Positions 889-22,877 of a stretch of DNA of 22,877 bases are shown here, piece by piece. Source of the stretch: Anaerolineaceae bacterium. Lineage in GTDB: Bacteria > Chloroflexota > Anaerolineae > Anaerolineales > Anaerolineaceae. Below the pieces are notes generated by a model that saw only the letters and a list, made by a program, of their open reading frames with translations, did not search any database and was not told the DNA's origin. Made by a program: the position numbers and the translations under genes. Position 1 is the first letter of the stretch; every line of letters begins with the position of its first letter. The stretch covers positions 1 to 22,877 of the forward strand of contig JACZIY010000315.1 of NCBI GenBank assembly GCA_014860845.1, written 5' to 3'.

Positions 889-914
889 ACATATTTTTGA
901 AAGGAGTATACATA

Positions 915-1787: not shown

Positions 1788-1800
1788 TCTGGAGGTAATA

Positions 1801-2421
1801 ATGAAAATCGAACTGACAACACCCATTTCAGATCATGATATAAAGAAACTTTCTGTTGGTGATACCGTCTTACTCTCAGGAGTGATGATCACCGGAAGAG
1901 ATGCTGCCCATAAATGGATTGCAGATAACTTTATCCATCCTACCAAAGAACCCTCAAAAGAAGATCAAAAAATATTTGCAGAAATCAAGCCGATTTTGGA
2001 TGGTGGCTTGATTTATCATTGTGGACCGGTGGTCGCTGGTTTGGAGACAAAAGAATACAGGTTCGTTGCCGCAGGACCAACTACCAGTATCAGGGAAGAA
2101 CCCTATCAGGCAGATGTGATGCGCCTTTTCAATCTTAAAGGAGTTATCGGGAAGGGAGGTATGGCCGGTAAAACCCTAAAGGCATGCCAGGAAGTACCAG
2201 CGGTTTATTTTCACGCAATTGGAGGAGCTGCAGCATTTATTGCTGAAAGGATAACAGAAGTTATTGGTGTCTACAAACTTGATTTTGGTGTACCTGAAGC
2301 CTTGTGGGTTATCAGGGCGGATAAATTTCCGGTTGTTGTTACGATGGATTCTCATGGTATCAGCCTGCACGATACTGTCAGAGAAAAATCGAAGAAAATA
2401 TTTGAGCAACTAATTTCTTAA
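1801..2421 (+). CDS. Class I fumarate hydratase, beta subunit
   Basis: This is the 206-residue C-terminal-type subunit of the iron-sulfur fumarase. It completes the active site with the alpha subunit. Recognisable features are the early GDTVLLSGVMITGRDAAHKW segment, YHCGPVV, AAGPTTSIRE, the GKGGM turn and the C-terminal DSHGISLH. It begins 13 bases after the alpha-subunit stop, with a GGAGG ribosome-binding site just before the ATG, so the two subunits should be co-translated. A tartrate dehydratase beta subunit would look similar; the malic enzyme upstream makes fumarase the better reading. Confidence 0.9.
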   Translation: MKIELTTPISDHDIKKLSVGDTVLLSGVMITGRDAAHKWIADNFIHPTKEPSKEDQKIFAEIKPILDGGLIYHCGPVVAGLETKEYRFVAAGPTTSIREEPYQADVMRLFNLKGVIGKGGMAGKTLKACQEVPAVYFHAIGGAAAFIAERITEVIGVYKLDFGVPEALWVIRADKFPVVVTMDSHGISLHDTVREKSKKIFEQLIS

Positions 2422-5477: not shown

Positions 5478-6479
5478 CTATGCTTCCACACTTTTTACTG
5501 TAGCTTTTGATTTAGCGCTTTTCTGGTAAACGTCAAAAGCCACCGCAGCGAGTAGTACAGCTCCTTTGACTACATTTTGAGAGAAATCAGGGAAAGTGGC
5601 AAGCTGCATGGCGTTGTTCAATACCCCGATAATTAAAATACCGGTCATCAAACCAAAAATAGTGCCCTCACCACCTTTGAAACTGAACCCACCCAATAAC
5701 GCAGCTGTCAATGCATCAAATTCAACACCTTGTCCGGTGAAGACTTGCCCGGCAAAAACCCGTGAAAGTAACAACACTGAGGTGATTCCTGATACAAAAC
5801 CACAGATCGTGAACAAGAGTATTTTCATTCTTTTAATGTTCACACCAGCAAGACGTGCCGCTTCTTCGTTGCCACCTAAAGCAAATATATAGCGACCGAA
5901 GTATGTTTTGGTCAGAATAAATGATCCGATCAAGGCTATTATGATCATAATGATAATCGGTACTGGGATCGGACCGATATAACCCTGACCAAACCATCGG
6001 AAAGCATCGGGAAAGCCCATGATATTCCTCGATTGGGCAAAAATGTATCCCAAACCCTTAAAAATCGAAGCTGTGCCCAGGGTGATAATGAGTGAATGAA
6101 CATTCAGTGTAACAGAGAGGATACCATTAATCAGACCCAGTGTTGTTCCAAGCAGTAGGGTCAGCGGAATGGCAATACCCATAGGAACATTCCAATAAGC
6201 CATCATAATAGATAAAACGACATTGGTCATCACAATCTGGGAGCCAATGGAAAGATCAATGCCGCCAGAGATCATCACAAAACCAACACCCACCGCGCTG
6301 ATAGCGGCGAAAGATACCTGCCGTATTAGGATGATAAGATTACGTGAGGTCATGAAATTGGGAGAGATGATGGTGAATAATATCACCAGACCAATCAGGA
6401 TCATCTGCGGTGCGTATTTCTGCAACTCTGTGCCAGTTCTTATCCTCAGATTCGAGAAGTTTGAGGTTGTATTCGTCAT
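5478..6479 (-). CDS. Ribose/monosaccharide-type ABC importer, permease
   Basis: A 333-residue inner-membrane permease of the RbsC/XylH family (CUT2 class). It has about eight to ten hydrophobic helices, the conserved GGIDLSIGS region near residue 75 and the EAA-like ALGGNEEAARLAGVNI segment that contacts the ATPase. The start ATG at 6479 has AAGGAG eight bases upstream. It lies 12 bases after the ATPase gene and receives substrate from the lipoprotein two genes upstream. CUT2 importers carry pentoses, hexoses, AI-2 or other polyols; which one is not evident. Confidence 0.93.
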   Translation of the reverse strand: MTNTTSNFSNLRIRTGTELQKYAPQMILIGLVILFTIISPNFMTSRNLIILIRQVSFAAISAVGVGFVMISGGIDLSIGSQIVMTNVVLSIMMAYWNVPMGIAIPLTLLLGTTLGLINGILSVTLNVHSLIITLGTASIFKGLGYIFAQSRNIMGFPDAFRWFGQGYIGPIPVPIIIMIIIALIGSFILTKTYFGRYIFALGGNEEAARLAGVNIKRMKILLFTICGFVSGITSVLLLSRVFAGQVFTGQGVEFDALTAALLGGFSFKGGEGTIFGLMTGILIIGVLNNAMQLATFPDFSQNVVKGAVLLAAVAFDVYQKSAKSKATVKSVEA

Positions 6480-6491
6480 AAAGAGGTCTCC

Positions 6492-7979
6492 TTAATGTAT
6501 ACCCGACGCGAGATCGAGAATATAGTCTTGGCTGAATTGTTCTTTCTGTACTTCACCGGTCAGCTTGCCTTCGCTCAGCACGATAATCCGGTCTGACATC
6601 CCCAATAATTCTTCCATGTCGGAAGAGATCATCAGGATGGCATTGCCATGATCAGCTAACTCGCACATCAGTTGGTAAATCTCCTGTTTTGCCCCTACAT
6701 CAATACCACGCGTAGGTTCATCAAAGATGAGAATATCGGATTCAGCAGCCAGGGATTTTGCCAAAACAACTTTTTGCTGGTTACCACCGCTCAGGTTTAT
6801 GACGCGTTGCTCCATACTGGGTGTTTTAATATTAATCCGATCACGGTAATGCTCGGTAATATTCTTTTCGGTTTTGGTATCTACCACCCCATTTTTGGAT
6901 AGTTTGCGGACAATCGGGAAACTGATATTCCAACCGACTCCCATCTCCAAAAAGAGACCTTTGTTTTTGCGGTCTTCGGTCAGTAGACCAAGACCCTGCT
7001 GGATAGCATCGTGTGGTGAACGTAATCGAACTTTTTTTCCATCCACCCAGATTTCACCACTTTCGATGGGGGCAGCACCGTAAAGCAACATGGCAAGTTC
7101 CGATCTGCCAGCCCCTACTAGACCGGAAATACCCAGGATTTCTCCTTTTCGCACCGTAAATGAAATATCGTAGTCACCATTCCCCGTCAGATTTTTAACT
7201 TCCAGCGCGATCTCACCCAGGGGGTGCATCCGTGGTGGATAAGTTTCAGTTAGTTGACGCCCAACCATTAAACTGATCAGTTCTTGGCGGTTGGTATCTT
7301 TGGTCAATTTGGTGGCTACGTATTCACCATCCCGCAAGACTGAAACCCGGTCTGAAATTCTAAAGACTTCTTCCAATCGGTGGGATATATAAATAACCGT
7401 GACTCCATTTTGTTTTAACTGATTCACAACCTCGAACATGTGCTCCACTTCCGAAACCGAAAGTGGGGCGCTGGGTTCGTCCATAATCAGGATTTTTACA
7501 TCTTTTGAGACCGCTTTGGCGATCTCGACAATTTGTTTTTGAGCAGGAGATAGCTCCCGCACCAAGATATTCGGATCGATATCGACATTGAATTGATCAA
7601 AAAGCTCCCTGGCCTTCCTTTTCATTGCCCGATAATCGACCAGGTACTTATCGCTCGGCTTTTCCCCCAGAAAAATATTCTCAGCAGCTGTCATGGTCGG
7701 CACCAGGTTGAATTCCTGGTAGATCACTTCAATTCCCAATCCCCTGGAGAGGTGCGGGGTCATCTGCTGATGATCTTCCCCCCCAACATGAATAATTCCA
7801 TCGTCTATATTAATTGCGCCTGCCACAGCTTTAATCAATGTGGACTTCCCGGCACCATTTTCTCCTAGTAAAGCATGGACCTCCCCCGCAATGAAGTCTA
7901 AAGAAACATTGTTCAGCGCAAGAACCCCAGGATATCTTTTGGTGATGTTTTTCAGTGATAATACGACCTTGGCATCCAT
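6492..7979 (-). CDS. Ribose/monosaccharide-type ABC importer, double ATPase
   Basis: A 495-residue fused ATPase of the RbsA/MglA/XylG family, with two nucleotide-binding halves. The N-terminal half has Walker A GENGAGKST, signature LSPAQKQ and Walker B ILIMDEPSAPL. The C-terminal half has the degenerate Walker A GLVGAGRSE usual for this family, signature LSGGNQQK and ILIFDEPTRGID. It powers the permease encoded next. AGGTGA lies close upstream of the ATG. A strong stem-loop separates it from the binding-protein gene, probably allowing lower expression than the binding protein. Confidence 0.94.
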   Translation of the reverse strand: MDAKVVLSLKNITKRYPGVLALNNVSLDFIAGEVHALLGENGAGKSTLIKAVAGAINIDDGIIHVGGEDHQQMTPHLSRGLGIEVIYQEFNLVPTMTAAENIFLGEKPSDKYLVDYRAMKRKARELFDQFNVDIDPNILVRELSPAQKQIVEIAKAVSKDVKILIMDEPSAPLSVSEVEHMFEVVNQLKQNGVTVIYISHRLEEVFRISDRVSVLRDGEYVATKLTKDTNRQELISLMVGRQLTETYPPRMHPLGEIALEVKNLTGNGDYDISFTVRKGEILGISGLVGAGRSELAMLLYGAAPIESGEIWVDGKKVRLRSPHDAIQQGLGLLTEDRKNKGLFLEMGVGWNISFPIVRKLSKNGVVDTKTEKNITEHYRDRINIKTPSMEQRVINLSGGNQQKVVLAKSLAAESDILIFDEPTRGIDVGAKQEIYQLMCELADHGNAILMISSDMEELLGMSDRIIVLSEGKLTGEVQKEQFSQDYILDLASGIH

Positions 7980-7996
7980 TCTTTTTCACCTATTTT

Positions 7997-8029
7997 TTAT
8001 AGTGAAGGGTCCCCCACCCTTCACTATAA
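7997..8029 (-). repeat. Strong intercistronic stem-loop after the binding-protein gene
   Basis: A perfect 14-bp inverted repeat (7997-8010 with 8016-8029; core AGTGAAGGGT/ACCCTTCACT) with a 5-base loop, in the 73 bases between binding protein and ATPase. In the operon's own (minus) direction it is followed by A-rich sequence, so it is not a classic terminator. It more likely stabilises the upstream message or attenuates read-through, as intercistronic hairpins do in malE-malF-type operons. On the plus strand seven T follow it, so it could terminate antisense transcription. Confidence 0.75.
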
Positions 8030-8052
8030 TTTTTTTACAGATATACCACTTA

Positions 8053-9144
8053 TTATGGTGCGAGTGTGGCAAAATCGCAATGGATCGGTTCCAATGCATC
8101 ATTGATGATGTCGGGGTGTTCGACACCCTGCAGCATCTTCTTGACCTGTTCGTAGGTAGCTACATCAAGAGCGGTCCCACCGATGGCAACAAAACCTTTG
8201 TAGGGATCTTCGCAACTGGTGACGGTTGGGATCATGGAAGGATCCATATCACCAGCGAAAACACCATAATCAGCTAAGTTAACACCAGGCATCGCTTTGA
8301 TAGCGTTAGAAATACCCTGTGCATGGGCTGTGGATTGGCCAATGAACACTTTTACATTAGGATTAGCCGTTAAGACATTCTCGGCGGCATTCTGACCAAC
8401 AGGAAGGCTATCACCAGAAACATCCAAATGTGCAACAAGTTTGACCTTAGGGCAGGTGTCAGTGATGGTGGAATAACCATCATCGCGTAATTTCATGCCA
8501 ACGGAGGAACTCGCACCACCAACAATGGCAGTTTCAACACTACCGTCAGCAGCATCTGGGTACCTGGCTTCAATGAAATCGCAAGCCATCTTCGCAACTT
8601 TGACACCGTCTTCATATTGGCTGGTGTGCATAATGGAATCAAAGGGAGCAAGTTTTTGAGGAGGTACACCCATCACCATGATACCAGCGGCTTTGGCTTC
8701 TTCAACAGCAGGTAACAGCTGATCGACTTCGCCGGCTGCCATAAGGTACATGAAATCAACACCCATGGAGATACAATTCTCAATCTGGTCAAACTGTGCG
8801 TTCAAACCACCTTCGTCAGCGCCGTAGACGTTCACTGTCACGCCATCAGCTGCAAATTGTTCTGTAACGGAAGTGGCAACCCCGTTCAAGAAAGGATTGG
8901 CAAGTGAGGGTATGATGTAACAGACCACTTTGCCGTTGATATCGAAAGGCGATCCTGGTTTTGCAGGCACCATAGAAACATTGGTGTCTTCAGCTGGTTC
9001 GTCAACAGCCGGTTCCTCTGCAACTGGTTCCTGTACGGCTGGTTGTTCAGCAGCAGGCGCTTCAGTTGCTTTAGCAGCGCAGGCTGTCAATAGGATACTA
9101 GCGATCATGATAATCACCAGGATCATTGAAAGATTCTTTTTCAT
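8053..9144 (-). CDS. Ribose-type ABC importer, substrate-binding lipoprotein
   Basis: A 363-residue periplasmic-binding-protein-4 (RbsB-like) lipoprotein. The signal peptide ends in the lipobox LLTAC with Cys22 as the lipidated residue. A low-complexity Ala/Pro/Glu linker of about 40 residues follows, then the two-lobed sugar-binding domain (from DINGKVVCYI). The start is taken at the ATG 9144: AAGGAG at 9157-9152 is seven bases upstream of it but only one base from the in-frame ATG at 9150. It is the first gene of the importer operon, divergent from a LysR gene, with a palindromic operator candidate upstream. The ligand is unknown; a sugar, polyol or sugar ester would fit the downstream esterases. 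Confidence 0.93.
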   Translation of the reverse strand: MKKNLSMILVIIMIASILLTACAAKATEAPAAEQPAVQEPVAEEPAVDEPAEDTNVSMVPAKPGSPFDINGKVVCYIIPSLANPFLNGVATSVTEQFAADGVTVNVYGADEGGLNAQFDQIENCISMGVDFMYLMAAGEVDQLLPAVEEAKAAGIMVMGVPPQKLAPFDSIMHTSQYEDGVKVAKMACDFIEARYPDAADGSVETAIVGGASSSVGMKLRDDGYSTITDTCPKVKLVAHLDVSGDSLPVGQNAAENVLTANPNVKVFIGQSTAHAQGISNAIKAMPGVNLADYGVFAGDMDPSMIPTVTSCEDPYKGFVAIGGTALDVATYEQVKKMLQGVEHPDIINDALEPIHCDFATLAP

Positions 9145-9180
9145 TCTCATTCTCCTTGTTTGGATAATTTGCCATTGGTT

Positions 9181-11942: not shown

Positions 11943-12557
11943 TTAAAGGAGTTCTCCAGGTTTTTCTGAACCTGCCAACCAAGCTTTTCCTTCATTGTAT
12001 AACTTTTCAACTTCAGGACCGTGTAAGCCGGGCAAGCAATCTTTAACTGAAAAGCCATTTTTCGCCTGTAGATAACCCAGGTGACAATACCCTTCCGGGA
12101 AACTGGTAAGCAGATCCGTATCAAAATCAAGAACAATGGATGGATCAACAGGATCGAGTCTGTCCTTTTCATAAATCGGTTGCCGACGAACGATCCCCCA
12201 ACGTCCATCCCGTTTCTCAAAAAAATCATAGAAACGACCATAACAAACAACATCGATCAAAACACCCTCGAGTGGTGCGCGTTGATTGATGGTCATTTTG
12301 ACTTGAGAAATGGCACGGTTGCCAGAAATATCACAGGTCCAGCCACAAAGTTGATGCAGGATACTACCACTTTTTTTGAAGAGTACACGGCTGGCTTCGA
12401 TAAAATCTTTGGCAGGTCCCTGGAACCAGGTCGCTGTCATCCAGCCATCATCATGCCAGACTGTCGCAAAGCGCTCCCACTCGCCTGCATCACGATATAG
12501 AACCCAATTCTCTACCACTTCACGGATAGCAAGTTTATCTTCAATCAGATCGTTCAT
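11943..12557 (-). CDS. SnoaL-like / NTF2-fold protein
   Basis: A 204-residue protein with a SnoaL-like NTF2-fold domain in residues about 5-140 (DKLAIREVVENWVLYRDAGEWERFATVWHDD, then GRFYDFFEKRDGRWGIVRR). The fold includes aromatic-ring dioxygenase beta subunits, ketosteroid isomerase-like enzymes and polyketide cyclases. No Rieske alpha subunit is nearby, so a dioxygenase role is not supported. It is the last gene of the meta-cleavage-type operon, seven bases after the isomerase-like gene, and may act on a pathway intermediate. The ribosome-binding site is weak, suggesting translational coupling. The function is unassigned. Confidence 0.72.
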   Translation of the reverse strand: MNDLIEDKLAIREVVENWVLYRDAGEWERFATVWHDDGWMTATWFQGPAKDFIEASRVLFKKSGSILHQLCGWTCDISGNRAISQVKMTINQRAPLEGVLIDVVCYGRFYDFFEKRDGRWGIVRRQPIYEKDRLDPVDPSIVLDFDTDLLTSFPEGYCHLGYLQAKNGFSVKDCLPGLHGPEVEKLYNEGKAWLAGSEKPGELL

Positions 12558-12564
12558 ATTTTAT

Positions 12565-12933
12565 CTACAAATCTGGGATGTTGTGATGTGTCAATGCGAT
12601 CCCTTCGCGCATTTCTTTGATATCCACCGAGAGGGATAAAAAGTAGTTCTCAAAACGATGCCCGAAAGTGTTTTCCAGTACCTTCATCACCTGTTGAGAC
12701 AAAACCTTTTGTACCTCAATCGGTCGTCCCTCGCGAATCAATAAATTAACATGTACAAAGGCATATTCCGGATTGCCATCTGCAATGCGATAATCGCTGT
12801 GACGAACTGCACGGCTCTTGAGCGCTTTCAAGTTGATGGCTCCAGTAGCTGCTAATTCAGAAAGAAGACGTGCAAGAACATCCTGTACATCAAAATCAAG
12901 GTTATTGGTATATTCGAGTGTAAGATGAGGCAT
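12565..12933 (-). CDS. 5-carboxymethyl-2-hydroxymuconate isomerase-like tautomerase
   Basis: A 122-residue protein of the CHMI (HpaF) family in the tautomerase superfamily, which isomerises unsaturated oxo-acids after meta ring cleavage. The N-terminus MPHLTLEYTNN leaves Pro1 as the catalytic base once Met is removed. The ATG at 12933 is preferred over an upstream in-frame start (12993) because it places Pro at position 2 and has GGAG five bases upstream. Its start is only two bases after the stop of the extradiol-type dioxygenase gene, so the two are coupled. Gene pairing with a homoprotocatechuate-dioxygenase-like enzyme mirrors hpaD-hpaF. The true substrate may differ. Confidence 0.85.
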   Translation of the reverse strand: MPHLTLEYTNNLDFDVQDVLARLLSELAATGAINLKALKSRAVRHSDYRIADGNPEYAFVHVNLLIREGRPIEVQKVLSQQVMKVLENTFGHRFENYFLSLSVDIKEMREGIALTHHNIPDL

Positions 12934-12935
12934 GT

Positions 12936-13901
12936 TTACTCCACTGGTGGTGATCCATATGTATGGAAGGATGGAATGGTCGGTAAACCCCATGCCTGTC
13001 CTTTTTTGCGTTCTGCCTCACTCCAGATGATTGGCTTCCAATCAGGGGCGAGCATCAGACGCGCTCCGGCGTTGGCGATCTCAAAACGAATCCCACCTGG
13101 TTCAAAAACGTACAAAAAGAAGGTTTGCTGGATGGCGTGTTTGTGCGGACCTGTCTCAATGGGAACACCATGTTCCAGACAAATATCCGCAGCACGCAAA
13201 ATAGCCTCGCGATTATCCACTGCGTAAGTGATATGATGCAGGCGTCCTTTTGCTCCAACCCAGTCTTCCACAATTGCCACATCATAAGTCTTGTTGTTAC
13301 AGGTTACCCAGGCTGCTTTTTCTGATCCATCATCGAAAATTACCTGTTCGGTTAACCGCATACCCAGTACTTCTTCATGAAAAACCCGAGATGCCCGTAC
13401 ATCCGAAGCAAGGATGTTGATATGGTCTAACCTCCTCAAACCGATACCACGGTCTGGAAATCGGGAAGCTTGATTCTTCAATGCAGGCTTTAACTCCGCT
13501 GAAGGCTGATACCATTCGGTATCATAATAAATTTCCATATTATGTCCATCGGGATTTGTGAAACAATAAGCAGGGCCATGCCCCACATTATCATCTTTCC
13601 ACCCTTTTCCCAAACCGGATTTCTCCACAGCAGCCACTCTTCGCTGTAACGCCTGTGGGCTCATTACACGAAACGCATAATGTCCCAAGGCAGGCTTGGA
13701 GGAAGCTGTGAGTTGAAGAGAATGATGTTCGTAATCATCCCAACCACGCAAATAAACAGAATCCCCCACTCGTTCAGTTTCGTACATGCCCATCACATGT
13801 ATGAAGAAGTCTCTACTTTCCTCAAGTTTAGGCGTCAACAACTCAATATGAGCCAGATGAGCTAAATCTAAAATCGGTTCAGGGTTCAATTTTCCTCCCA
13901 T
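12936..13901 (-). CDS. Extradiol-type ring-cleavage dioxygenase (VOC family, homoprotocatechuate 2,3-dioxygenase-like)
   Basis: A 321-residue, two-VOC-domain protein resembling catechol and homoprotocatechuate 2,3-dioxygenases, which open catecholic rings next to the diol using Fe(II) or Mn(II) and O2. The second domain keeps the metal triad His160 (RLDHINI), His223 (RLHHITY) and Glu274 (IRFEIAN), at spacings like those of characterised enzymes. Trp198 (AAW) and Tyr264 (FFLYVF) also fit. The second-sphere acid-base histidine expected at position 206 appears to be Tyr. The start is uncertain: ATG 13901, or TTG 13889 just after GGGAGG; both overlap the upstream aldolase gene. The longer reading from 14057 only overlaps that gene further. 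Confidence 0.82.
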   Translation of the reverse strand: MGGKLNPEPILDLAHLAHIELLTPKLEESRDFFIHVMGMYETERVGDSVYLRGWDDYEHHSLQLTASSKPALGHYAFRVMSPQALQRRVAAVEKSGLGKGWKDDNVGHGPAYCFTNPDGHNMEIYYDTEWYQPSAELKPALKNQASRFPDRGIGLRRLDHINILASDVRASRVFHEEVLGMRLTEQVIFDDGSEKAAWVTCNNKTYDVAIVEDWVGAKGRLHHITYAVDNREAILRAADICLEHGVPIETGPHKHAIQQTFFLYVFEPGGIRFEIANAGARLMLAPDWKPIIWSEAERKKGQAWGLPTIPSFHTYGSPPVE

Positions 13902-14523
13902 TCTTTTCAACAAAGTCACGTAGTCCGTGCAGATCATAGGATATTTCACCAGCCTCCAATTTCTCACGCAAGCGCGTTTCTTTTTCAAAACGCACTTCTG
14001 AAGCCTGCAAAACTTCTCCAACCCGCTCTTGCTTAATACAAACTCCCCCATCGGCATCTAAAACAATAATATCTGATGGGGCAATCTGTGTGCCGCCAAC
14101 AGATACAATTCTATTAAGTTCGCCAATCTTATTCTTGCTTGCGCCTTTTACCCGAATGAAACGAGTCCAAATAGGAAGACCAAGGTTCTGCAACTCTTCC
14201 ACATCCCTGACTGCTGCATCCACTAAAATTCCTGCAGCTTTTTTAACCTTGGCCTGAGTTACCAACAATTCGCCAATTAACGCCACAGGCGCTGGTTCTG
14301 GCATGGTCAATACCAGCACCTCTCCAGGTATAATCTGCTCGATGGCTGCGTGCACCATCAGGTTATCATCCTGTGCGCATCGCACCGTTCGTGCAGGGCC
14401 GGCAATGCGACTGCCCTGAATTAGCTGAATGAATGGGATATCAATCAGTCCAATCCGCCCTGAAGCTTCATAAACAGTTGCGACACCAAGTTCACTGAGT
14501 CGTTTGAGTTCGTCTACTGTCAT
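13879..14523 (-). CDS. RraA/HMG-aldolase family protein, probable 4-carboxy-4-hydroxy-2-oxoadipate aldolase
   Basis: A 214-residue member of the RraA-like (old name dimethylmenaquinone methyltransferase) family. It carries the aldolase signature G-E-x20-R-D: Gly84-Glu85 (IGELLV), then Arg106-Asp107 (DAAVRDVEEL), the metal- and substrate-binding residues of class II pyruvate aldolases. Such enzymes split 4-carboxy-4-hydroxy-2-oxoadipate or 4-hydroxy-4-methyl-2-oxoglutarate to pyruvate plus oxaloacetate or pyruvate. Its ATG overlaps the stop of the GalB-like gene by four bases (ATGA), as expected for the next pathway step. A pure RraA (RNase E regulator) role is unlikely in this context. Confidence 0.86.
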   Translation of the reverse strand: MTVDELKRLSELGVATVYEASGRIGLIDIPFIQLIQGSRIAGPARTVRCAQDDNLMVHAAIEQIIPGEVLVLTMPEPAPVALIGELLVTQAKVKKAAGILVDAAVRDVEELQNLGLPIWTRFIRVKGASKNKIGELNRIVSVGGTQIAPSDIIVLDADGGVCIKQERVGEVLQASEVRFEKETRLREKLEAGEISYDLHGLRDFVEKNGRKIEP

Positions 14524-15233
14524 AAGCTCTTAACCACCCAGGGTAAGGAACGCTGCATCGCCTCGGCAAATTTCACTTCCTGGTTTCCGGATATGCGCCG
14601 TGCATGATTGCCCCGCCGTGAACCAAGATCAGTGTAATAGGTTTGCAGATAACTTTGCGCCTTCATGCAGTTCATTGCTTTCTTTTTTTGTTCCATCACA
14701 GGTGTGATATCCACAAATGTGTTCGGATGAAATTCACATAACTCTGGCTGATGTGGTTCGAAAAAATACAGATCCGGTGGATTAATGCGATTAAAAGCAC
14801 TTGCCACACCCGCACCGGATGATAACAAGCGCGCTTTCTGCACAGCCTGACAGGCAACAGGATGATCGGGATTGAATGGGTCAACAGGTGTATGTGTCAG
14901 GATGATATCCGGTTGAATTTCACGGATAATTTGAACGATTTGCTCCAGGGCTGGGTCGTTAATGTTGAGGGGGTAGTCACCAAAATCCAGGGCTCGAAAG
15001 TCAGCCCCTAAGATCCGGGCAGCTGCACTGGCCTCTTCGTGTCGAATTCGCTTAACGTTTTCGACAGTCTGGTTCGGCTCTTTCCACAATTCACCTGATT
15101 CTCCGCGCTCTCCGTAAGAAAGGACTACAACAGTTGCGGTACCTCCCTGAGTTGTAATTGTCGCGATCGTCCCACCAGCCCGCCACACAAAATCTGCGGA
15201 GTGTGCTCCAATAACAAGTAATTTTCTGGTCAT
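14520..15233 (-). CDS. galB: GalB-like 4-oxalomesaconate hydratase (PIG-L/LmbE fold)
   Basis: A 237-residue PIG-L-superfamily protein. It does not carry the deacetylase signature AHPDD; it reads AHSAD, keeping metal ligands His11 and Asp14 but with Ala13 where the deacetylase catalytic Asp sits. His124 (NPDHPVA) is the likely third ligand. The motifs DFVWRAGG, SYGERGES and FFEPHQPE match what I recall of GalB, the zinc-dependent hydratase turning 4-oxalomesaconate into 4-carboxy-4-hydroxy-2-oxoadipate in gallate and protocatechuate meta-cleavage. The adjoining aldolase would take the next step. GGAGGG lies six bases before the ATG. A divergent N-acetylsugar deacetylase is the alternative. Confidence 0.75.
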   Translation of the reverse strand: MTRKLLVIGAHSADFVWRAGGTIATITTQGGTATVVVLSYGERGESGELWKEPNQTVENVKRIRHEEASAAARILGADFRALDFGDYPLNINDPALEQIVQIIREIQPDIILTHTPVDPFNPDHPVACQAVQKARLLSSGAGVASAFNRINPPDLYFFEPHQPELCEFHPNTFVDITPVMEQKKKAMNCMKAQSYLQTYYTDLGSRRGNHARRISGNQEVKFAEAMQRSLPWVVKSL

Positions 15234-15416: not shown

Positions 15417-15748
15417 GTAGAAATGAGCATTCATTCACATTAAATACACCATCAGCTACCAGTCATTTCATTATAGCCACTGGAACCACTTAATAAATAT
15501 GTCCGCATAAGCTTATGTGTCGTAGATTTGCTCGCTTCTTGCTGCTGAAAAGCGAATTCACTCCCGCTATCGCATTACCTCTTGTCTGTCTATCGAGGAA
15601 TTGATCGTTGATCTCATTCACTTTTTCACCAAAAAAATATGAAATATTTCCATCCCAGTTATTGGACTGTCACTCTGATTAGGAAAATTTTTCCTTTCAG
15701 GTTTGGTTAAATTGTGAAAGCCATTTCAATATTCTTGGATTTTTTTGC
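15417..15748. other. Interval upstream of the galB-like operon; possible decayed gene
   Basis: This stretch separates the RdhA-like gene from the meta-cleavage genes and probably holds the latter's promoter. A TATAAT lies on the minus strand at 15475-15470, about 54 bases before the broken 59-codon gene, but no good -35 box is seen. On the minus strand 15669-15490 is open for 59 codons (QSNNWDGNISYFFGEKVNE onward, ending CGHIY), with a possible GTG at 15621. It has no convincing ribosome-binding site and I cannot name it. It may be a remnant. Confidence 0.35.
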
Positions 15749-16846
15749 CTATTCGCGAGATTCGATCACTTCGTCCACATATTCCATATCGTGCCACCAC
15801 TTTTTTTCCGGAACAGTCATTCGTTCTCCAAGGGATTCAGCAATCTTTATGGCTATCGGTCGAGTGAAAGGCAAATCAATGATCAATCTGCGTATCAAGT
15901 TATGTGGGAAAGTCGATGGATTACTCCATGGACAGCTCTTGACACATGTATTACACATCGTCCCGTTTCTGTTTGTGAAGTTGTAGCTCCCACAACGACG
16001 GGTATCCAGCTTCCATGTCTCATAACCGTTATACATCACTTTATCGCCAATTGAGATGGCTTTACTGGGACAGTTCTTTGCACATATCTTGCAATTCCGG
16101 CAAAATTCCTGCAAGCCAAAATCAATGGGTCGGTCCGGGACAATAGGCATATCCGTGAGTACAGCTGCAGCTTTGTACGCCAATCCAAGATACGGATTCA
16201 AGACGATTCCCGCTCGGCTGACTTCACCAATTCCCGCTGCGAGCAAAAGCGGTGGAAGCAACACCGAATATTTATTCACGAAAGAAGGTCCGTATTGAGG
16301 GGAAGCATCCCAACCCAGGCGGCGGATGTAATTTGCCATCGTTTCGGTAACCATCCCTAAATGCTGGTAAGACTGAAAACTGATCGGATCGCCCATCCAA
16401 TCATGACCTGTTGAAGCGCGCATCGCCTTTAACTCTTTACGCATCACAATAACAATTGCGTTTTCAAATCGGGGAACAATCGGGTTCCCCATTTTATCAT
16501 GGCTATAATTAGCAGATTCAGGCACTTTGCAAGTCCCCATGATATCGGCTTTCAGAAAATAACCGAATGACTTAATATGATCGGTCAGGAACTCCGGGTC
16601 TTGCGAAATCGGTGCTTTATATTCAGCTACTGGGTTCGAACTCATCAAAGCAATGTGATCGATAATATCTTTTTGTGCAGCAGAAAGCGGAAATTTCCCC
16701 GGCAGGCTCTTTTGTACACCTCTTTGCACAGCGACTCCATATTCACCACGGGCAGCAAGTCCATAGGCGGTATTACGAATATCGATTCGCTGGACTTGAT
16801 CAGTGATCAAATTGGTAGGCTTATCCACGTGTTTGAATTGCTGCAT
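15749..16846 (-). CDS. RdhA-like reductive dehalogenase homologue, cytoplasmic, no Tat signal
   Basis: A 365-residue corrinoid/iron-sulfur protein. The N-terminal two thirds match the cobalamin-binding region of RdhA/QueG proteins, including AAGIGEVSRAG, VLTDMPIVPDRPIDFG and LNPYLG. The C-terminus has two ferredoxin clusters: C249, C252, C255, C259 (CRNCKICAKNCP) and C285, C298, C301, C305 (CNTCVKSCPW). The short 12-residue gap between C285 and C298 and the CPWSNPSTF ending are RdhA-like rather than QueG-like. There is no Tat leader, no fused flavin/ferredoxin domain and no rdhB. The start is the ATG at 16846; the frame is open to a TTG at 17002, but that extension crosses a strong inverted repeat and lacks a ribosome-binding site. 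It follows the importer's binding-protein gene. Confidence 0.8.
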   Translation of the reverse strand: MQQFKHVDKPTNLITDQVQRIDIRNTAYGLAARGEYGVAVQRGVQKSLPGKFPLSAAQKDIIDHIALMSSNPVAEYKAPISQDPEFLTDHIKSFGYFLKADIMGTCKVPESANYSHDKMGNPIVPRFENAIVIVMRKELKAMRASTGHDWMGDPISFQSYQHLGMVTETMANYIRRLGWDASPQYGPSFVNKYSVLLPPLLLAAGIGEVSRAGIVLNPYLGLAYKAAAVLTDMPIVPDRPIDFGLQEFCRNCKICAKNCPSKAISIGDKVMYNGYETWKLDTRRCGSYNFTNRNGTMCNTCVKSCPWSNPSTFPHNLIRRLIIDLPFTRPIAIKIAESLGERMTVPEKKWWHDMEYVDEVIESRE

Positions 16847-16938
16847 AGGAAAATAACCCTGCGATTTCTGTCTTTTTTGCAAATTGTTTTCGTTAATTTT
16901 TTCGCTGCGGTCCAACAGGCTGTACGAAATTCTATTTT

Positions 16939-16979
16939 GATTGAGGTGGTGTTGTGATTGTTCAAGCACCACCTCAATC
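16939..16979 (-). repeat. Stem-loop between binding-protein and RdhA-like genes
   Basis: A perfect 13-bp inverted repeat, GATTGAGGTGGTG (16939-16951) and CACCACCTCAATC (16967-16979), with a 15-base loop. It lies 40 bases after the importer lipoprotein's stop. It is not followed by a T-run on the minus strand, so message stabilisation or partial attenuation is more likely than full termination. It argues that the RdhA-like protein starts downstream, at 16846. Confidence 0.7.
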
Positions 16980-17018
16980 CTATGATATTTTCTGTCTTTC
17001 AATGACAGTTGTTATTGG

Positions 17019-18347
17019 TTATCTTTCTCCAAAGGGAGGTGCTGGATAGAGAATACCAGTGGATGCCTGTTCTGGTGGGTAGACGAGGCGTGTTACACCA
17101 CCTTGCCATTGAACCATCGGGTTCAATACGTTACCAGTACCATCTGCGTTGAATGTCACCTGACCAATCATTGTATCCATATCACTGGCAGCCATCGCAT
17201 CACGAACAGCTACTTTATCCAGTGTACCGGCGTTCTCAATCGCTGCTGCAAGAAGCTGTACACAGGCATAGCCCGGACCTGTCAGAATATCTGCAGGGCG
17301 ATCAAATTGGGCCTGGTAGGTTGCGTTGAGTGCTTCAACCCCATCAAACTTTGCTTCATGGTGCCAGCCAGGGAAGATGGTGACATAATCGCCAACCTTA
17401 CCCATAGCTTCACCCCAGTTGAGCCCTTCCGGTGCCCTGATCACAAGTGCGAATTTTGGAGCCCAATCCAGTTCAGCCATGGTCTTAAACATACCGCTGC
17501 CGTCCGGGAAAATGGGTAAGGTCAGAAGAACCTCGGCGCCAGCTGCTTTGGCCCTTAGGATAGCATCAGACCAATCGTTTGGCTTTGCGGGATTCTCAGC
17601 ATATTCTACAACTTCATAACCATTTGCTTCTGCTTCGGCTTGCCAAAGCTTACCTATTTCAATACCCCAGTCATCACTGTAGGTGAAGATTGCAACTTTC
17701 GGTTTTTCTCCATCGCCAACCAGAGAGTTCAGAATAATAAAAGTGTCCGTAGCTTGTTGTGGGGATTTGGGGAATGGCGAGAAAAGATATTGGAAACCCT
17801 GCTGATGGATCTGATACAAAGCGAAGGCAACACCGCAATAAGGCACCTGATTTTTTTCAGCAATTGGAGCGGAAGCAGCGTGCATGGCACTACCGCCACC
17901 ACCCAGATATGCTGTCAATGTCATGTTTGAGTTCAGATTTTCCATATTGGTGACTGCGTTGGTGGGTTCAGATGCATCGTCATAGAATGTCAGGCGTAAT
18001 GGGACTTTTACGCCATATTCTTCTACATACACGCCACCAGCCGCATTGATGTCATCCACGGCAATTTGGTAACCAGGTAAAATCATATTTCCAAGGTCAG
18101 CAAATTTACCGGTCAGGGAAATCGAGGAGCCAATTTCAATATATTCCGGCGCAGGTGGTTTTGCTTCTTCTACCTCTTCTACTTCTTCTGCAGCTGGAGC
18201 TTCAGAAGGGGCTTCTGTCGTTGGGTTTTCAGCTGGTTGTTCTGCAACAGGAGCAGCCGGTGCTTCTGTTGCTGTTGGTCCACAACTTGCGAGCAACAAG
18301 CTCGCTACAATCAAGATCGCGAAAAAACTCATTCGTTTGGTTTTCAT
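17019..18347 (-). CDS. Branched-chain amino acid-type (HAAT) ABC importer, substrate-binding lipoprotein
   Basis: A 442-residue LivK/Peripla_BP_6-type lipoprotein. The signal peptide ends in LLASC (lipidated Cys22). A long Ala/Pro/Glu/Thr-rich spacer (about 23-70) follows, then a two-lobed binding domain starting IEIGSSISLTGKFADLG. GGAGG stands six bases before the ATG. The domain keeps the family's IAVDDINAAGGV block. HAAT binding proteins bind branched-chain amino acids but also aromatic acids such as benzoates, amides and urea. The RdhA-like gene downstream and nearby meta-cleavage genes make an aromatic acid plausible here, which is inference. Confidence 0.92.
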   Translation of the reverse strand: MKTKRMSFFAILIVASLLLASCGPTATEAPAAPVAEQPAENPTTEAPSEAPAAEEVEEVEEAKPPAPEYIEIGSSISLTGKFADLGNMILPGYQIAVDDINAAGGVYVEEYGVKVPLRLTFYDDASEPTNAVTNMENLNSNMTLTAYLGGGGSAMHAASAPIAEKNQVPYCGVAFALYQIHQQGFQYLFSPFPKSPQQATDTFIILNSLVGDGEKPKVAIFTYSDDWGIEIGKLWQAEAEANGYEVVEYAENPAKPNDWSDAILRAKAAGAEVLLTLPIFPDGSGMFKTMAELDWAPKFALVIRAPEGLNWGEAMGKVGDYVTIFPGWHHEAKFDGVEALNATYQAQFDRPADILTGPGYACVQLLAAAIENAGTLDKVAVRDAMAASDMDTMIGQVTFNADGTGNVLNPMVQWQGGVTRLVYPPEQASTGILYPAPPFGER

Positions 18348-18581: not shown

Positions 18582-19538
18582 CTACTCGCTTGGGGGGAGG
18601 TTCTTTTTAGAATTTAATTTCGATTGACCTGAAATTCCTTTCTTCAGCTTGCCCCAAAGAGAAACAATTCCACCCGGCAAAAAAAGCACAACGATAATAA
18701 ACAATACTCCAAATATGATCATATGGTATTCACCAACATTCATGACCAAAAATTGTTTTAGCGCAACAAAAAATACCGCACCGATGATGGGTCCAAGGAT
18801 GGTACCCTGACCGCCAATGTAAACCATTGTCAACATATCCAGGCTCCAGGAAGGTGAGAACGGGTATTGGTAATAGTAGCCAACATGATAGAAAGCAAAC
18901 GCCCCACCTGCCAAACCGGTAAAAAATGCACTGACACCTAAAGCGATCAGTTTATGCTTCAAAGCACTGACGCCAAGTGACTCCGCCGCGTCCTCTTCTT
19001 CACGCACCGCCATCATACCCAGTCCGATTTTGGAATTCACAAGAAGATAAGAACCTCCAATAACGAATACAGCCAATCCCAGTAGAGCATAATATCGCGG
19101 CACAAGTTGATAACCAACAAGTTGCTTAATCGGAAGAGAAGCTATTTCTGGAAACATATTACCAACCGTCACATTAAGAATCTCCGCAAGCGCCAGTGTG
19201 CCAATAGCAAAATAGACGCCTTTAAGCCTAAAAGCAGGAGCACCGATTAGCAATGCGAAGGCAACGGCCAGTAAACTGCCTACCAAAATGCTGGGAATAA
19301 TGTGCACCCCTTTGACCCAGAGTAAGCGTGTTGCAAGAGAACCCAAGCCAAAAAAAGCGGCATGCCCCAGACTGGTCTGCCCCGTATAACCACCCAGGAT
19401 ATTCCAACTCGTTGCCAGGATGACATATAACAAAATCAAAACCAGGAGGTTTAGGATGCTCTCTTTTTCAATCACCAATGGCATGCACACCATGATAACG
19501 ATGAGAAGGATGATAAAGATGATTTTTTGATTTTTCAT
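18582..19538 (-). CDS. livM: HAAT importer permease LivM
   Basis: A 318-residue inner-membrane permease with about eight to ten hydrophobic segments. It has the LivM signature GGYTGQTSLGHAAFFGLG near residue 50 and the ATPase-contact segment VREEEDAAESLGVSALKHKL. It pairs with LivH to form the channel. It starts two bases after the livH stop, so the two are coupled. The C-terminus is a short charged cytoplasmic tail (KKGISGQSKLNSKKN). Confidence 0.93.
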   Translation of the reverse strand: MKNQKIIFIILLIVIMVCMPLVIEKESILNLLVLILLYVILATSWNILGGYTGQTSLGHAAFFGLGSLATRLLWVKGVHIIPSILVGSLLAVAFALLIGAPAFRLKGVYFAIGTLALAEILNVTVGNMFPEIASLPIKQLVGYQLVPRYYALLGLAVFVIGGSYLLVNSKIGLGMMAVREEEDAAESLGVSALKHKLIALGVSAFFTGLAGGAFAFYHVGYYYQYPFSPSWSLDMLTMVYIGGQGTILGPIIGAVFFVALKQFLVMNVGEYHMIIFGVLFIIVVLFLPGGIVSLWGKLKKGISGQSKLNSKKNLPPSE

Positions 19539-19540
19539 TA

Positions 19541-20422
19541 TTACCTTTCCTTTGCGCCGAATAACCCCTGGGGTTTAAAGATCAAAACCAGCAGAAAGAA
19601 GATAAGACCAACCACCTCACGGTAATTTCCACTAATAAAGAATGCAGTAGCCGATTCAGTGGCACCCAGAAGAATGCCTCCCACAAAAGTACCCATGAAA
19701 TTGCCCACTCCCCCCAACACCATCACGATCAGTGACTTAAGGGTCCAATGCAACCCAATAGAGGGACTTACTGAATAGCTCACGAGCACCAAAGCACCAG
19801 CCACCCCGGCTAAGGCAGTTCCTATCAGAAAGGCAAGCATATAGACCTTTTGCACATCAATCCCCACCAGTGAGGCTGCCTCCCAATCCTCTGTTGTAGC
19901 CCTGATAGCTTTCCCGATATAAGTTTTGCGCAGGAATTGCTGTAAGGCAAATAAGCATACTAATGAAATCACTAAACCTGCTACGCGCACATAAGGGAAA
20001 CGAATACCTAACCACATTAACGATTCTGTGGCATAAGATGTGGTAACCCCGCGATCATTTGCAGTCCAAAGATTCAATGCGATGTTCTGTAAAACCAAGG
20101 TCAAACCAAACCCGACCAGCATAGTATTTTTAATCTTTTGCTCTTCTGTCATTTTGACCATGCGAACGAAAAGCAGTTTATAAAGTACAAAACCGATCAG
20201 AAGGAGGAACAGGATTGTAAGTGGAAGTGAAAGGAAGGGGTCGATGTTCAAAAGTTTAAAAAGCCAAAAGGTGGAATATCCGCCGAACATCAAGAGCTCT
20301 CCATGGGCTACATTAAGGAACTTTGTAACCCCGAAGACCATGGCAATTCCCACCGCCGCTAATCCATATAGGGCTCCCAACATAATACCTATTACCAAAT
20401 TTTGCGTTACAGCCTCAATCAT
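19541..20422 (-). CDS. livH: HAAT importer permease LivH
   Basis: A 293-residue inner-membrane permease of the LivH family with about eight transmembrane segments. It has the characteristic GALYGLAAVGIAMVFGV...NVAHGELLMFGGY N-terminal region and the loop KAIRATTEDWEAASLVGID that docks on the ATPases. AAGGA precedes the ATG. It lies between the LivF ATPase and LivM, the usual gene order being altered only by the ATPases coming first. Confidence 0.93.
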   Translation of the reverse strand: MIEAVTQNLVIGIMLGALYGLAAVGIAMVFGVTKFLNVAHGELLMFGGYSTFWLFKLLNIDPFLSLPLTILFLLLIGFVLYKLLFVRMVKMTEEQKIKNTMLVGFGLTLVLQNIALNLWTANDRGVTTSYATESLMWLGIRFPYVRVAGLVISLVCLFALQQFLRKTYIGKAIRATTEDWEAASLVGIDVQKVYMLAFLIGTALAGVAGALVLVSYSVSPSIGLHWTLKSLIVMVLGGVGNFMGTFVGGILLGATESATAFFISGNYREVVGLIFFLLVLIFKPQGLFGAKER

Positions 20423-20437: not shown

Positions 20438-21139
20438 CTATCCTAAATATGCAGCGCGTATGGATTCAAACGATAGGAGAGAATCGCCTTTTCCCTCACC
20501 AATGATCCTGCCATTCTCAATGACGTATGCCCTTTGAGCCAATTCCAGTGCTGCTCTGACATTTTGTTCCACCAGCAGGACAGTTACACCTAGTTTGTTA
20601 ATTTTCTCTATCAACACAAACATTTGCTGTACAAGAATCGGAGCCAATCCAAATGATGGTTCGTCGAGCATCAAAAGTTTTGGTTTTGACATTAACGCTC
20701 GACCAATAGCCAACATCTGCCTTTCTCCACCGCTCAGAGTTCCCGCTTGTTGATTCTTTCGCTCTGCCAGGCGTGGAAAAATTTCGAATACCCAGTTCAT
20801 GGACTCATCCTTGACTTTTCTAGCTCTAGAAGGAAACGATCCTAATTCCAAATTTTCGAGAACTGTCATTCCAGCAAACACTCTGCCACCTTCAGGTACC
20901 TGTGAAATCCCAAATTCAACAATCTTGTGAGCTGGCGCTTTGCGTAAATCGTTGCCATCGAATTCGACCGATCCGGATGCTATTTGCAGCAAACCGGTGA
21001 TCACTTTCAAGGTTGTTGTTTTCCCTGCTCCATTTGGACCTACCAGGGCAACCAATTCTCCTTCTTTTATCTCCATAGAAACTCCCCAAAGTGCCTGGAG
21101 ATCTCCATAAAAAGCATTTATATCATTAAGTTTAAGCAT
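20438..21139 (-). CDS. livF: HAAT importer ATPase LivF
   Basis: A 233-residue ABC ATPase. It has Walker A GPNGAGKTT, the LivF-typical ISQVPEGGRVFAGMTVLENL, signature LSGGERQ, Walker B LLMLDEPSFGLAP and the switch His region replaced by VEQN, as usual for LivF (LLVEQNVRAAL). It overlaps the livG stop by eight bases, giving translational coupling and equal subunit supply. It hydrolyses ATP on the cytoplasmic face of the importer. Confidence 0.95.
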   Translation of the reverse strand: MLKLNDINAFYGDLQALWGVSMEIKEGELVALVGPNGAGKTTTLKVITGLLQIASGSVEFDGNDLRKAPAHKIVEFGISQVPEGGRVFAGMTVLENLELGSFPSRARKVKDESMNWVFEIFPRLAERKNQQAGTLSGGERQMLAIGRALMSKPKLLMLDEPSFGLAPILVQQMFVLIEKINKLGVTVLLVEQNVRAALELAQRAYVIENGRIIGEGKGDSLLSFESIRAAYLG

Positions 21140-21863
21140 GTGGTTTTCCTAGATATACGTCGATAACTTCAGGATTGTGAATCACATCTTGAGGGAGGCC
21201 TTCTGCGATTTTTTGCCCCATGTTCAACACAACAATGCGATCAGAGAGTCCAACAATTGCCTTAACGATATGTTCTACCATAAGGATAGTAAGATTGAAC
21301 TCTTCTTTTAATTTACGGATTAAATTCATAGCATCCTCAGCCTCAGCATGGTTCAATCCCGCCATTAATTCATCCAAAAGAAGCAATTGAGGTTTTGCAG
21401 CTAGAGCCCTGGCAAGCTCAACCCTTTTGCGTTCCATCAATGTCAGATCTTTCGCCAATTTGTCCGCTTTGTCCAGAAGACCAACCTTTTCAAGGTAAAG
21501 TTTCGATTCCTCCGCGGCAACTTTCAGGCTCTTGACAGATTCTTTGCCGTACATTCGGCCTACCATCACATTCTGCAACACTGAAAATTCAAGAAACGGT
21601 TTTACCAACTGAAAAGTCCTGGATATCCCCCTGCTGCAAATTTGATAACGCGGAAGACCGGCAATATTATTCCCCTGAAAAACGATCGTACCAGAATTTG
21701 GTTTTAGACAACCTGTAAGCAGGTTAATAGTTGTAGTCTTTCCAGAGCCATTTGGACCAATTAGCCCAATGATCTCACCTTCCTCAATGGCAAAGTCCAC
21801 ATTCCAGACTGCTTTCAATCCCCCAAATGACTTGCTAAGCAAATCAATCTTCAACAAACTCAT
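21132..21863 (-). CDS. livG: HAAT importer ATPase LivG
   Basis: A 243-residue ABC ATPase with Walker A GPNGSGKTT, the LivG block RTFQLVKPF, and switch His in MVEHIVKAI. The signature (LTLMERKRVELARA) and Walker B (LLLLDELMAGLN) differ from LSGGQ/DEP but resemble a common HAAT subgroup, with the catalytic Glu retained. The start is the ATG at 21863, with GAGGAGG five bases upstream; the frame is open to 21956, but that extension lacks homology and a ribosome-binding site and would overlap the MoaD/ThiS-like gene. It lies 62 bases after that gene. Confidence 0.93.
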   Translation of the reverse strand: MSLLKIDLLSKSFGGLKAVWNVDFAIEEGEIIGLIGPNGSGKTTTINLLTGCLKPNSGTIVFQGNNIAGLPRYQICSRGISRTFQLVKPFLEFSVLQNVMVGRMYGKESVKSLKVAAEESKLYLEKVGLLDKADKLAKDLTLMERKRVELARALAAKPQLLLLDELMAGLNHAEAEDAMNLIRKLKEEFNLTILMVEHIVKAIVGLSDRIVVLNMGQKIAEGLPQDVIHNPEVIDVYLGKPHA

Positions 21864-22157: not shown

Positions 22158-22877
22158 CTATAAAGTTTCAAACACTGAATCTAATTCGGAGTCTGGCACA
22201 TCAAAAACGACATTGTGAGGTGCCAACGGTTCTTCCCTCATATACTCTGGGATCCGATAATCTTTTGCCGTTTTCCCAGCAAGTCGGTTGAATTCCAGTT
22301 CATCCCGCAGAATATCTCTATACATGGCATCAAGGTCATTTTTATCCCAACCCCATCCATAAATACCATTGATCATGTCTGTCATGAGTTGTGGATCTGA
22401 GATAACCGGTGGTCTGGCGAATAGACACAAGCCGGTACTATCCAACATCGCAGAAATGATCTGTAATTTGAGAGAAAGCTCCTTTTGTCCTTCAATGCCC
22501 AATGGATTGACCTCAGCACGGGCACCAAATGCATTACCTGCTGTGTGGTCTGCACCTTGCGGGGAAGTAGCATAGGTTACCCCATTACCTTTTAGACTGC
22601 GCGGATCATAACCCGGCATTGCCTGACCTAATGCGGCAGGTACTCTTCTGATGCCAAATACGTGACCAGCTGTTACTGCTCCATTTCCTATCACGCGACC
22701 TAAAGGTGTACCTTCTCCAACTTGTTTTAGCAGTTCAATTATGCCCTCTGTATCTCCAAATTGTCCCAAACCAGCTTCAAGCACGACACCCAAAGCTGCG
22801 CCTGTTTCGATGGTATCCAGACCATAATCATTGCACATGTAATTGAGACTTGCTACTTCATCCAGATTTCCAATCCC
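22158..22877 (-). CDS. Aldehyde:ferredoxin oxidoreductase family enzyme, C-terminal part (5' end outside window)
   Basis: The frame is open to the window edge, so the N-terminal cofactor-binding domain lies outside; 239 residues are seen. The visible part has YMCNDYGLDTIETG, matching the AOR family's CxxxGLDTIS motif with an iron-sulfur ligand Cys, and DSTGLCLFA, carrying the last cluster Cys. The family binds a tungsten or molybdenum bis-pterin and oxidises aldehydes (or reduces acids) with ferredoxin; relatives include BamB of class II benzoyl-CoA reductase. Which subfamily this is cannot be settled without the N-terminus. It heads the visible part of the importer operon. Confidence 0.9.
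   Translation of the reverse strand, partial: GIGNLDEVASLNYMCNDYGLDTIETGAALGVVLEAGLGQFGDTEGIIELLKQVGEGTPLGRVIGNGAVTAGHVFGIRRVPAALGQAMPGYDPRSLKGNGVTYATSPQGADHTAGNAFGARAEVNPLGIEGQKELSLKLQIISAMLDSTGLCLFARPPVISDPQLMTDMINGIYGWGWDKNDLDAMYRDILRDELEFNRLAGKTAKDYRIPEYMREEPLAPHNVVFDVPDSELDSVFETL

Follow-up and report, generated by a model that had tools for sequence, protein, structure and literature searches.

What is a relative of the reductive dehalogenases (RDHs; family RdhA) doing in the cytoplasm of an Anaerolineaceae bacterium, directly behind a solute importer? The question is raised by a stretch of 22,877 nucleotides (GenBank assembly GCA_014860845.1, contig JACZIY010000315.1; hereafter the window), which carries an RdhA-like gene on its minus strand. 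From the family, fold, phylogenetic place, active-site residues, and gene linkage of the encoded protein (the query), all of which were computed, we propose with moderate confidence that it is a soluble, unfused, ferredoxin-fed, cobalamin-dependent reductive dehalogenase for halogenated polyhydroxy-aromatic acids that acts before ring opening. A sequence-only reading of the window preceded this analysis; the downstream ring-cleavage cassette, the replacement of an arginine of the active site (Arg552), and the optional presence of the gene in a wider island were not part of it.

Family and cellular location of the protein

The gene is an intact ORF (open reading frame) in the position where the sequence-only reading had placed it, and it gives a protein of 365 aa from an ATG at 16846. 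Because a Q.GxFPM motif just 5' of this ATG is common to most aligned homologues, and because the usual 388-aa form of the homologues aligns to a TTG at 16915, the TTG is the more likely start, and judging from the alignment the true gene probably spans 15749-16915.

15749..16915, minus strand: cytoplasmic RdhA-like cobalamin/2x[4Fe-4S] reductase, 388 aa (TTG 16915) or 365 aa (ATG 16846); TIGR02486, both 4Fe-4S motifs

The query almost certainly belongs to family RdhA and has the cobalamin-type fold. It scores 164.2 bits against the NCBIfam RDH model TIGR02486, above the cut-off of 160.35, and 32.9 bits against TIGR00276, the model of the epoxyqueuosine reductase QueG, for which the cut-off is 200. 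In a control set of 14 well-known genomes, 11 gave TIGR02486 matches at E<=1e-3 and none exceeded the cut-off, which was exceeded in 10 of 11 genomes of related loci. Pfam covers just the 4Fe-4S part of the protein; both 4Fe-4S motifs and the cobalamin-type fold are present, and cobalamin binding is a prediction, the pocket having been judged by overlaying the protein alone on NpRdhA of Nitratireductor pacificus (4ras, 6zxu). NpRdhA is also the best solved relative (E 2.5e-77, residues 1-360), followed by 8q4h (E 3.3e-29), PceA (E 4.9e-27), and then QueG (E 1.1e-5), in keeping with the earlier view that the catabolic NpRdhA/BhbA type is the closest among solved or characterized enzymes. The search with the query recovered 830 homologues at E<=1e-3, and this number together with the conserved gene order described below puts the feature far beyond chance. 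Statements about listed homologues refer to 240 rows: the best 120 of these 830, the window protein included, and the best 120 of 778 from a search with the related protein of locus L030.

Neither export nor membrane anchoring is indicated. The first 40 residues of the 388-aa form contain no RR, its highest 19-residue hydropathy is 1.3, and a twin-arginine translocation (Tat)-like motif was found in the first 80 residues of none of the 240 listed homologues. Among the ORFs of at least 40 aa in positions 15000-17300 of the window, no small one has two or more membrane-like segments, so no rdhB-like gene is seen there, and the fused electron-transfer domain of the BhbA type is absent, the 365-388 aa comprising the core only. 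The cytoplasmic location and the lack of an anchor and of a fused reductase domain that had been read from the sequence are thus borne out. On the sequence, the two marks of the catabolic type, absence of a Tat signal and of RdhB, are present.

The active site and its phylogenetic setting

In NpRdhA, whose numbering we use throughout, the proton comes from Y426 paired with K488; the phenol oxygen is held by K488 together with R552 and S422, and the second bromine sits in a pocket lined by A419; the substitutions R552L and K488Q strongly impair activity (PMC7565698). Between the conserved residues on either side, the alignment contains no gaps. S422, Y426, and K488 are retained in all 240 listed rows from both searches. 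In the query clade, R552 is replaced by Asn and A419 by Asp, a combination present in 120 of the 120 listed rows of the query search, the window's own included, and at all 13 query-clade loci. The listed rows of the L030 search have Asp419 in 116 of 120 cases and Arg552 in none, whereas the other rows of the same tree group (n=25, outside the query clade, L017, and L030) have R552 in 25 of 25 and Asp419 in 0 of 25. Phenol-binding Arg552, taken as a further mark of the NpRdhA/BhbA catabolic type, is therefore missing from the query clade, which very likely constitutes a distinct active-site class. Given Asn at 552 and Asp at 419, the substrate ring probably bears, next to the phenol, a second group able to form hydrogen bonds, and a halogenated catechol- or gallate-type acid would be expected.

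The phylogenetic tree comprises 71 rows, 68 of them different, and includes 21 of the 240 listed homologues, some of which are identical to locus rows; the fragmentary L054 (Yoonia) and, from overlapping loci, two of four paralogues of genome G109 were left out. One group (support 100/99) contains NpRdhA and the query together with the fused rows of the BhbA type and every unfused row that matches most of the query length. Of four further RdhA rows that stand beside it, three carry a Tat motif, and in L043 none is visible. The group lies apart from the QueG-like rows, and the placement within QueG that would have counted against the sequence-only reading is not observed. The deep root is uncertain because the outgroup branches are long. 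Within the group, NpRdhA and the fused BhbA type cluster with unfused, mostly alphaproteobacterial proteins (100/99), and the query clade occupies one side of a branch with 19 rows (100/100), forming a wider group with L013 and 17 rows of a sister family (100/99). L013 carries Arg552 and Thr419 and is placed weakly beside the query clade (80/5), a placement that allows for two origins of the pocket change or for a single loss. The suggestion that the protein represents a distinct class needs restating: it has its own clade and its own active-site pattern, but its unfused state is not distinctive, because unfused cytoplasmic forms are common among the relatives.

The sister family is large; its listed rows (P0121-P0240) bear source names from Bacillota, Korobacteraceae, Dehalococcoidia, Burkholderiales, Thermoleophilia, and Bathyarchaeia and are often labelled ferredoxin or epoxyqueuosine reductase. 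When Clostridial and other Chloroflexota relatives were sought with the L030 protein, matches at E<=1e-60 occurred in 1 of 391, 4 of 294, and 1 of 301 genomes.

The importer, the ring-cleavage cassette, and the wider island

Five liv genes lie directly 5' of the RDH gene on the same strand, with an aldehyde:ferredoxin oxidoreductase (AOR) gene beyond them.

16939..16979, minus strand: hairpin in the livK-rdh spacer, 13-bp perfect stem, 15-nt loop (folding z -5.85)
17019..18347, minus strand: livK-type binding lipoprotein (PF13458, 153.7 bits)
18582..19538, minus strand: livM-type permease (PF02653)
19541..20422, minus strand: livH-type permease (PF02653)
20438..21139, minus strand: livF-type ATPase (PF00005)
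21132..21863, minus strand: livG-type ATPase (PF00005 and BCA_ABC_TP_C)
22158..22877, minus strand: AOR, cut by the window end and whole in L001 (PF01314; PDB AOR matches for the L001 copy)

The HAAT/Liv importer that the sequence-only reading had seen ahead of the gene is a constant of its surroundings in other Anaerolineae, where gene order is conserved: importer genes are present at 13 of 13 query-clade loci (the window and L001-L012), with livK immediately upstream of the RDH gene in 12 and further off within the locus in L009. A hairpin recurs in the livK-rdh spacer in all 10 spacers surveyed (the window, L001-L008, and L012), with arms that differ in most of them and are alike in L005 and L006; folding z-scores are -2.45 to -6.84 in nine spacers and -0.62 in L006. 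Within one transcript, it may determine how much binding protein is made relative to the enzyme. Promoter-like sites are no more frequent than in shuffled sequence (14 versus a mean of 18.1) and terminator-like sites are more frequent (19 versus 10.5), none of them assigned as the end of the RDH operon.

AOR was earlier proposed to reduce the ferredoxin that serves the enzyme. An AOR orthologue at >=60% identity occurs in 11 of the 12 RDH genomes, which makes it a conserved companion that may feed the RDH; the small ferredoxin gene of the island described below would be at least as good a candidate donor. As the island has both its own ferredoxin and AOR, a ferredoxin is the likely electron donor; NpRdhA itself was assayed with a non-cognate flavodoxin reductase and ferredoxin (PMC7565698).

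Downstream of the RDH gene the window holds the following.

14520..15233, minus strand: GalB-like 4-oxalomesaconate hydratase, PIG-L fold (5cgz E 9e-63, next best 1e-11)
13879..14523, minus strand: GalC/LigK-like 4-carboxy-4-hydroxy-2-oxoadipate aldolase, RraA fold (NF006731 and TIGR02798 scores)
12936..14057, minus strand: extradiol (catechol 2,3-dioxygenase type) ring-cleavage dioxygenase, conserved part from ~13889 (TIGR03211, 331.2 bits, cut-off 320.2)
12565..12993, minus strand: CHMI-family tautomerase (PF02962)
11943..12557, minus strand: SnoaL-like cassette protein, kept in L001 and L002 (PF13577)
5478..9150, minus strand: ABC importer of the sugar type, with permease, ATPase, and binding protein; accompanies the island and is kept in L001-L003
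3555..5415, minus strand: two BD-FAE alpha/beta hydrolases (PF20434, 212 and 208 bits)
79..2421, plus strand: malic enzyme and two-part fumarase, a possible C4-acid outlet (PF03949, PF05681, PF05683)

Judged by sequence similarity, the cassette may be a lower pathway of the gallate/protocatechuate 4,5-type. The aldolase passes NF006731 by 0.6 bits (179.6 versus 179) and falls below the cut-off of TIGR02798 (173 versus 304.5), and the ring-cleavage dioxygenase belongs to the catechol 2,3-dioxygenase family (TIGR03211). The BD-FAE hydrolases, which we take to be of the feruloyl-esterase type, recur in 5 of the 18 loci compared in addition to the window. Our genome scan gave 30 loci with relatives, and in three of them (L001-L003) the order is largely that of the window, namely, AOR, livGFHMK, RDH, GalB-like, GalC-like, dioxygenase, and CHMI tautomerase, with the gallate-type cassette adjoining the RDH gene as it does in the window; L002 has a BD-FAE gene between RDH and GalB, and in L003 the sugar importer has moved to that place. 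Searches of 11 genomes revealed haem-copper oxidase subunit I in 7, including G001-G003 and not G005, and its presence in the genomes of L001-L003 makes an oxygen-using cassette plausible there.

A second module, consisting of a nitroreductase, a 154-aa orphan, a glutaconate-type CoA-transferase pair, and a 2[4Fe-4S] ferredoxin, accompanies the gene at 7 of the 12 query-clade loci other than the window. We had considered this module and the dioxygenase cassette to be mutually exclusive, an idea that was dropped when a CoA-transferase orthologue at >=68% identity proved to be present in all 12 RDH genomes (the query's own source among them). Among 396 sampled genomes of the class, 13 had an RDH match at E<=1e-60, 10 of them at >=62% identity; the CoA-transferase (>=67%) was found in 22 of the 396, a set that contains all 10 genomes with a query-clade RDH. 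In the 12 CoA-transferase genomes without RDH, several contigs end too early to judge. Where they do not, the island can be seen without the enzyme: in L097, which has the island and the importer, IclR comes next after livK and RDH is missing; in L096 a PF07519 (tannase and feruloyl esterase) protein (406.8 bits) occupies the RDH slot; and L101 has both modules and no RDH, with no importer within the 18 kb covered. The RDH gene is thus an optional accessory of a conserved, apparently phenolic-acid island. Such an accessory place, in what looks like a pathway for phenolic acids set free from plant esters, is more readily explained by a peripheral dehalogenase than by an essential step, and a role of the enzyme in phenolic-acid catabolism is probable.

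Several other members of the island were recorded. The 154-aa orphan (L006:2491-2955 and orthologues), situated between the nitroreductase and the CoA-transferase, matches no Pfam family above cut-off, and gene cluster c29 is an antisense shadow of the nitroreductase gene, not a separate gene. A U32-like protein of ~305 aa, with no family at cut-off, and an IolN-type hydrolase (474 versus 245 bits), both from the L001:959-2886 region and orthologues, travel with the island in many loci; the accessible portion of the phloroglucinol paper PMC10470551 contains neither the word creatininase nor IolN. A malic enzyme also lies within the L102 island. The neighbourhoods of L017 and L030 contain none of the tested island genes except a 23% MFS match in L030.

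Proposed function, alternatives, and known systems

The substrate, the electron donor, the order of the steps, and dehalogenation itself we infer as follows. The Liv importer would bring in an aromatic acid, and a low-potential ferredoxin, either the island's own or one re-reduced by AOR, would pass electrons through the two 4Fe-4S clusters to base-off cobalamin. The ring halogen would bind cobalt, a mechanism carried over from NpRdhA, Tyr426 with Lys488 would donate a proton, and the halide would leave. Extradiol cleavage and tautomerization of the product could follow, then hydration by the GalB-like enzyme and an aldol cleavage that yields pyruvate and oxaloacetate. Because halocatechols poison extradiol dioxygenases, there would be reason to take the halogen off first. 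The step would be peripheral, extending the range of compounds open to a pathway that occurs without RDH as well.

A number of observations weigh against this proposal. R552L severely impairs NpRdhA and the clade lacks Arg552, so that halophenolate chemistry of the NpRdhA kind may not transfer to the query. The RDH model is passed narrowly (164.2 versus 160.35 bits), and no halogen-specific gene was identified near the RDH gene. A ring-cleavage dioxygenase at E<=1e-40 was found in only 4 of the 12 RDH genomes and in none of the other 8, and haem-copper oxidase was not found in the query-clade genome of L006; the route after the RDH step is consequently not uniform. The gap between the RDH gene and the cassette is 515 bp in the window and ~6 kb in L003, and a shared transcript is not implied. 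The co-occurrence of RDH and CoA-transferase (hypergeometric 2.8e-14) is uncorrected for relatedness, and three genomes with remoter RdhA-like genes (36-40% identity) lack the CoA-transferase marker. As for the cofactor, a search of 7 query-clade genomes detected CobS in 4 and not in the other 3 (G001, G005, and G006, the nearest relative's included), and no cobalamin riboswitch appeared at Rfam gathering scores in the window, L001, L002, L003, L006, or L030.

These points leave room for other readings, the best of which is unlikely: that the group removed from a polyhydroxylated aromatic acid is an O-substituent, not a halogen, by reductive dehydroxylation or ether cleavage; vicinal hydroxyls would be held by Asp419 and Asn552, and cobalt would attack the C-O bond. 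None of the 240 listed rows has the Arg552 that holds the phenol oxygen in NpRdhA, the compounds processed by the island seem to be phenolics rich in oxygen, and an epoxide oxygen is removed by QueG, a member of the same cobalamin class. The family link between QueG and RdhA is stated in PMC10463259. However, Y426, K488, and S422 persist throughout, matching true dehalogenases, and the RDH gene is optional in the island, as expected for a step that confers tolerance or range. Aromatic C-O bonds are, moreover, much harder to break. Taken further, this reading would make the query clade a third class III cobalamin chemistry, next to dehalogenation and the reduction of epoxides: a ferredoxin-driven, cobalt-dependent reductive dehydroxylase or ether cleaver of polyhydroxylated plant phenolic acids, which is decidedly unlikely.

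Removal of a halogen as such, from phenolic acids and all other substrates taken together, is probable, and the question is then whether the substrate is phenolic at all. The imported compound that loses its halogen could be non-phenolic, e.g., an amine, amide, or amino acid bearing a halogen, and the aromatic cassette would then be no more than a neighbour. The importer is of the amino-acid-type HAAT family, Asp419 and Asn/Asp552 could hold an amine, and a protein 44% identical to the query is present in Sinanaerobacter chloroacetimidivorans, a name that suggests use of chloroacetamide; we found no paper on such use and no literature on Sinanaerobacter and a dehalogenase. Set against this are the tannase-type esterase, the BD-FAE esterases, and the GalB/GalC cassette, which surround the RDH gene or replace it, and we regard a non-phenolic substrate as improbable. 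A respiratory organohalide reductase, as membership in the RDH family might suggest, is rejected as very improbable for a protein with no Tat motif, no membrane segment, a clade apart from the Tat-bearing RdhAs, and no rdhB-like ORF in window positions 15000-17300. A QueG-type tRNA enzyme or a corrinoid-free ferredoxin protein is scarcely credible, even though some databases label relatives epoxyqueuosine reductase or ferredoxin and there is a weak QueG score, since that score (32.9 bits versus 200), the separate position in the tree, and a cobalamin-type fold matched to NpRdhA all contradict it.

The query differs in some respect from each of the closest known systems. NpRdhA has an N-terminal degenerate domain copy (62-222 matches weakly) that is absent from the query, and differs from it at positions 552 (Arg, Asn in the query) and 419 (Ala, Asp in the query) and in the Liv importer and the gallate-type or CoA-transferase island around the query. 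BhbA of Comamonas sp. 7D-2 (L051) shares the RdhA-type core (32% identity) and, like the query, lies near a gene for a solute-binding protein; however, its annotated coding sequence is 1013 aa, it keeps Arg552, and the neighbour is a binding protein of a tripartite tricarboxylate transporter, not Liv. PceA of Sulfurospirillum (4uqu) is respiratory, and its relative L053 has a Tat motif and falls in another clade; L043 has no visible Tat motif and yet groups with Tat RdhA rows. QueG is remote, with a model score below the cut-off. The RdhA of DEH-C11, a marine Dehalococcoidia, resembles the query in being from Chloroflexota, lacking Tat and RdhB, and having been suggested to be a non-terminal reductase, but it lies beside tRNA genes with few other syntenic genes (PMC4959651); it is not in our tree, in which the Dehalococcoidia-titled rows L013, L014, and L016 keep Arg552.

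RdhAs without Tat or RdhB are known from Dehalococcoidia (PMC4959651, PMC7506110) and from subseafloor metagenomes (PMC3939436), expressed RDases without a Tat motif, considered possibly intracellular, have been reported from Aarhus Bay (PMC12090745), an rdhA gene has been reported in an Anaerolineales single cell (PMC4959059), and the fused enzymes and their substrates are covered in PMC10463259, in which JtRdhA was produced in E. coli equipped with a cobalamin uptake system. Cytoplasmic Chloroflexota RdhAs are therefore already published; of the pocket class and its island setting we found no description in the literature searched, subscription journals being mostly outside its reach. The non-respiratory dehalogenases that we encountered in print or with a solved structure come from a few Proteobacteria. 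If the proposal is true, natural chlorinated and brominated humic and lignin-type compounds would be linked to ordinary carbon turnover in uncultured Anaerolineae, and small soluble proteins (365-388 aa) would be available for studying how the pocket controls substrate choice; the pocket hypothesis predicts that ortho-hydroxylated halo-aromatics are preferred over simple halophenols.

Other RdhA genes turned up among the relatives. Four loci from marine alphaproteobacteria (L020, L021, L023, and L026) encode an unfused RdhA of ~450 aa that keeps Arg552 and adjoins genes for a LigB ring-cleavage dioxygenase (with LigA where the contig reaches) and MFS genes, and L020, L021, and L026 also have HpaB-type hydroxylase and IclR genes beside it. 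Genome G109 of the class carries four tandem cytoplasmic RdhA-like genes (L066, L069-L071) with 36-40% identity to the query, and two genomes have a second RdhA, with a Tat motif, alongside the query-clade gene (L033 in G001 and L031 in G004).
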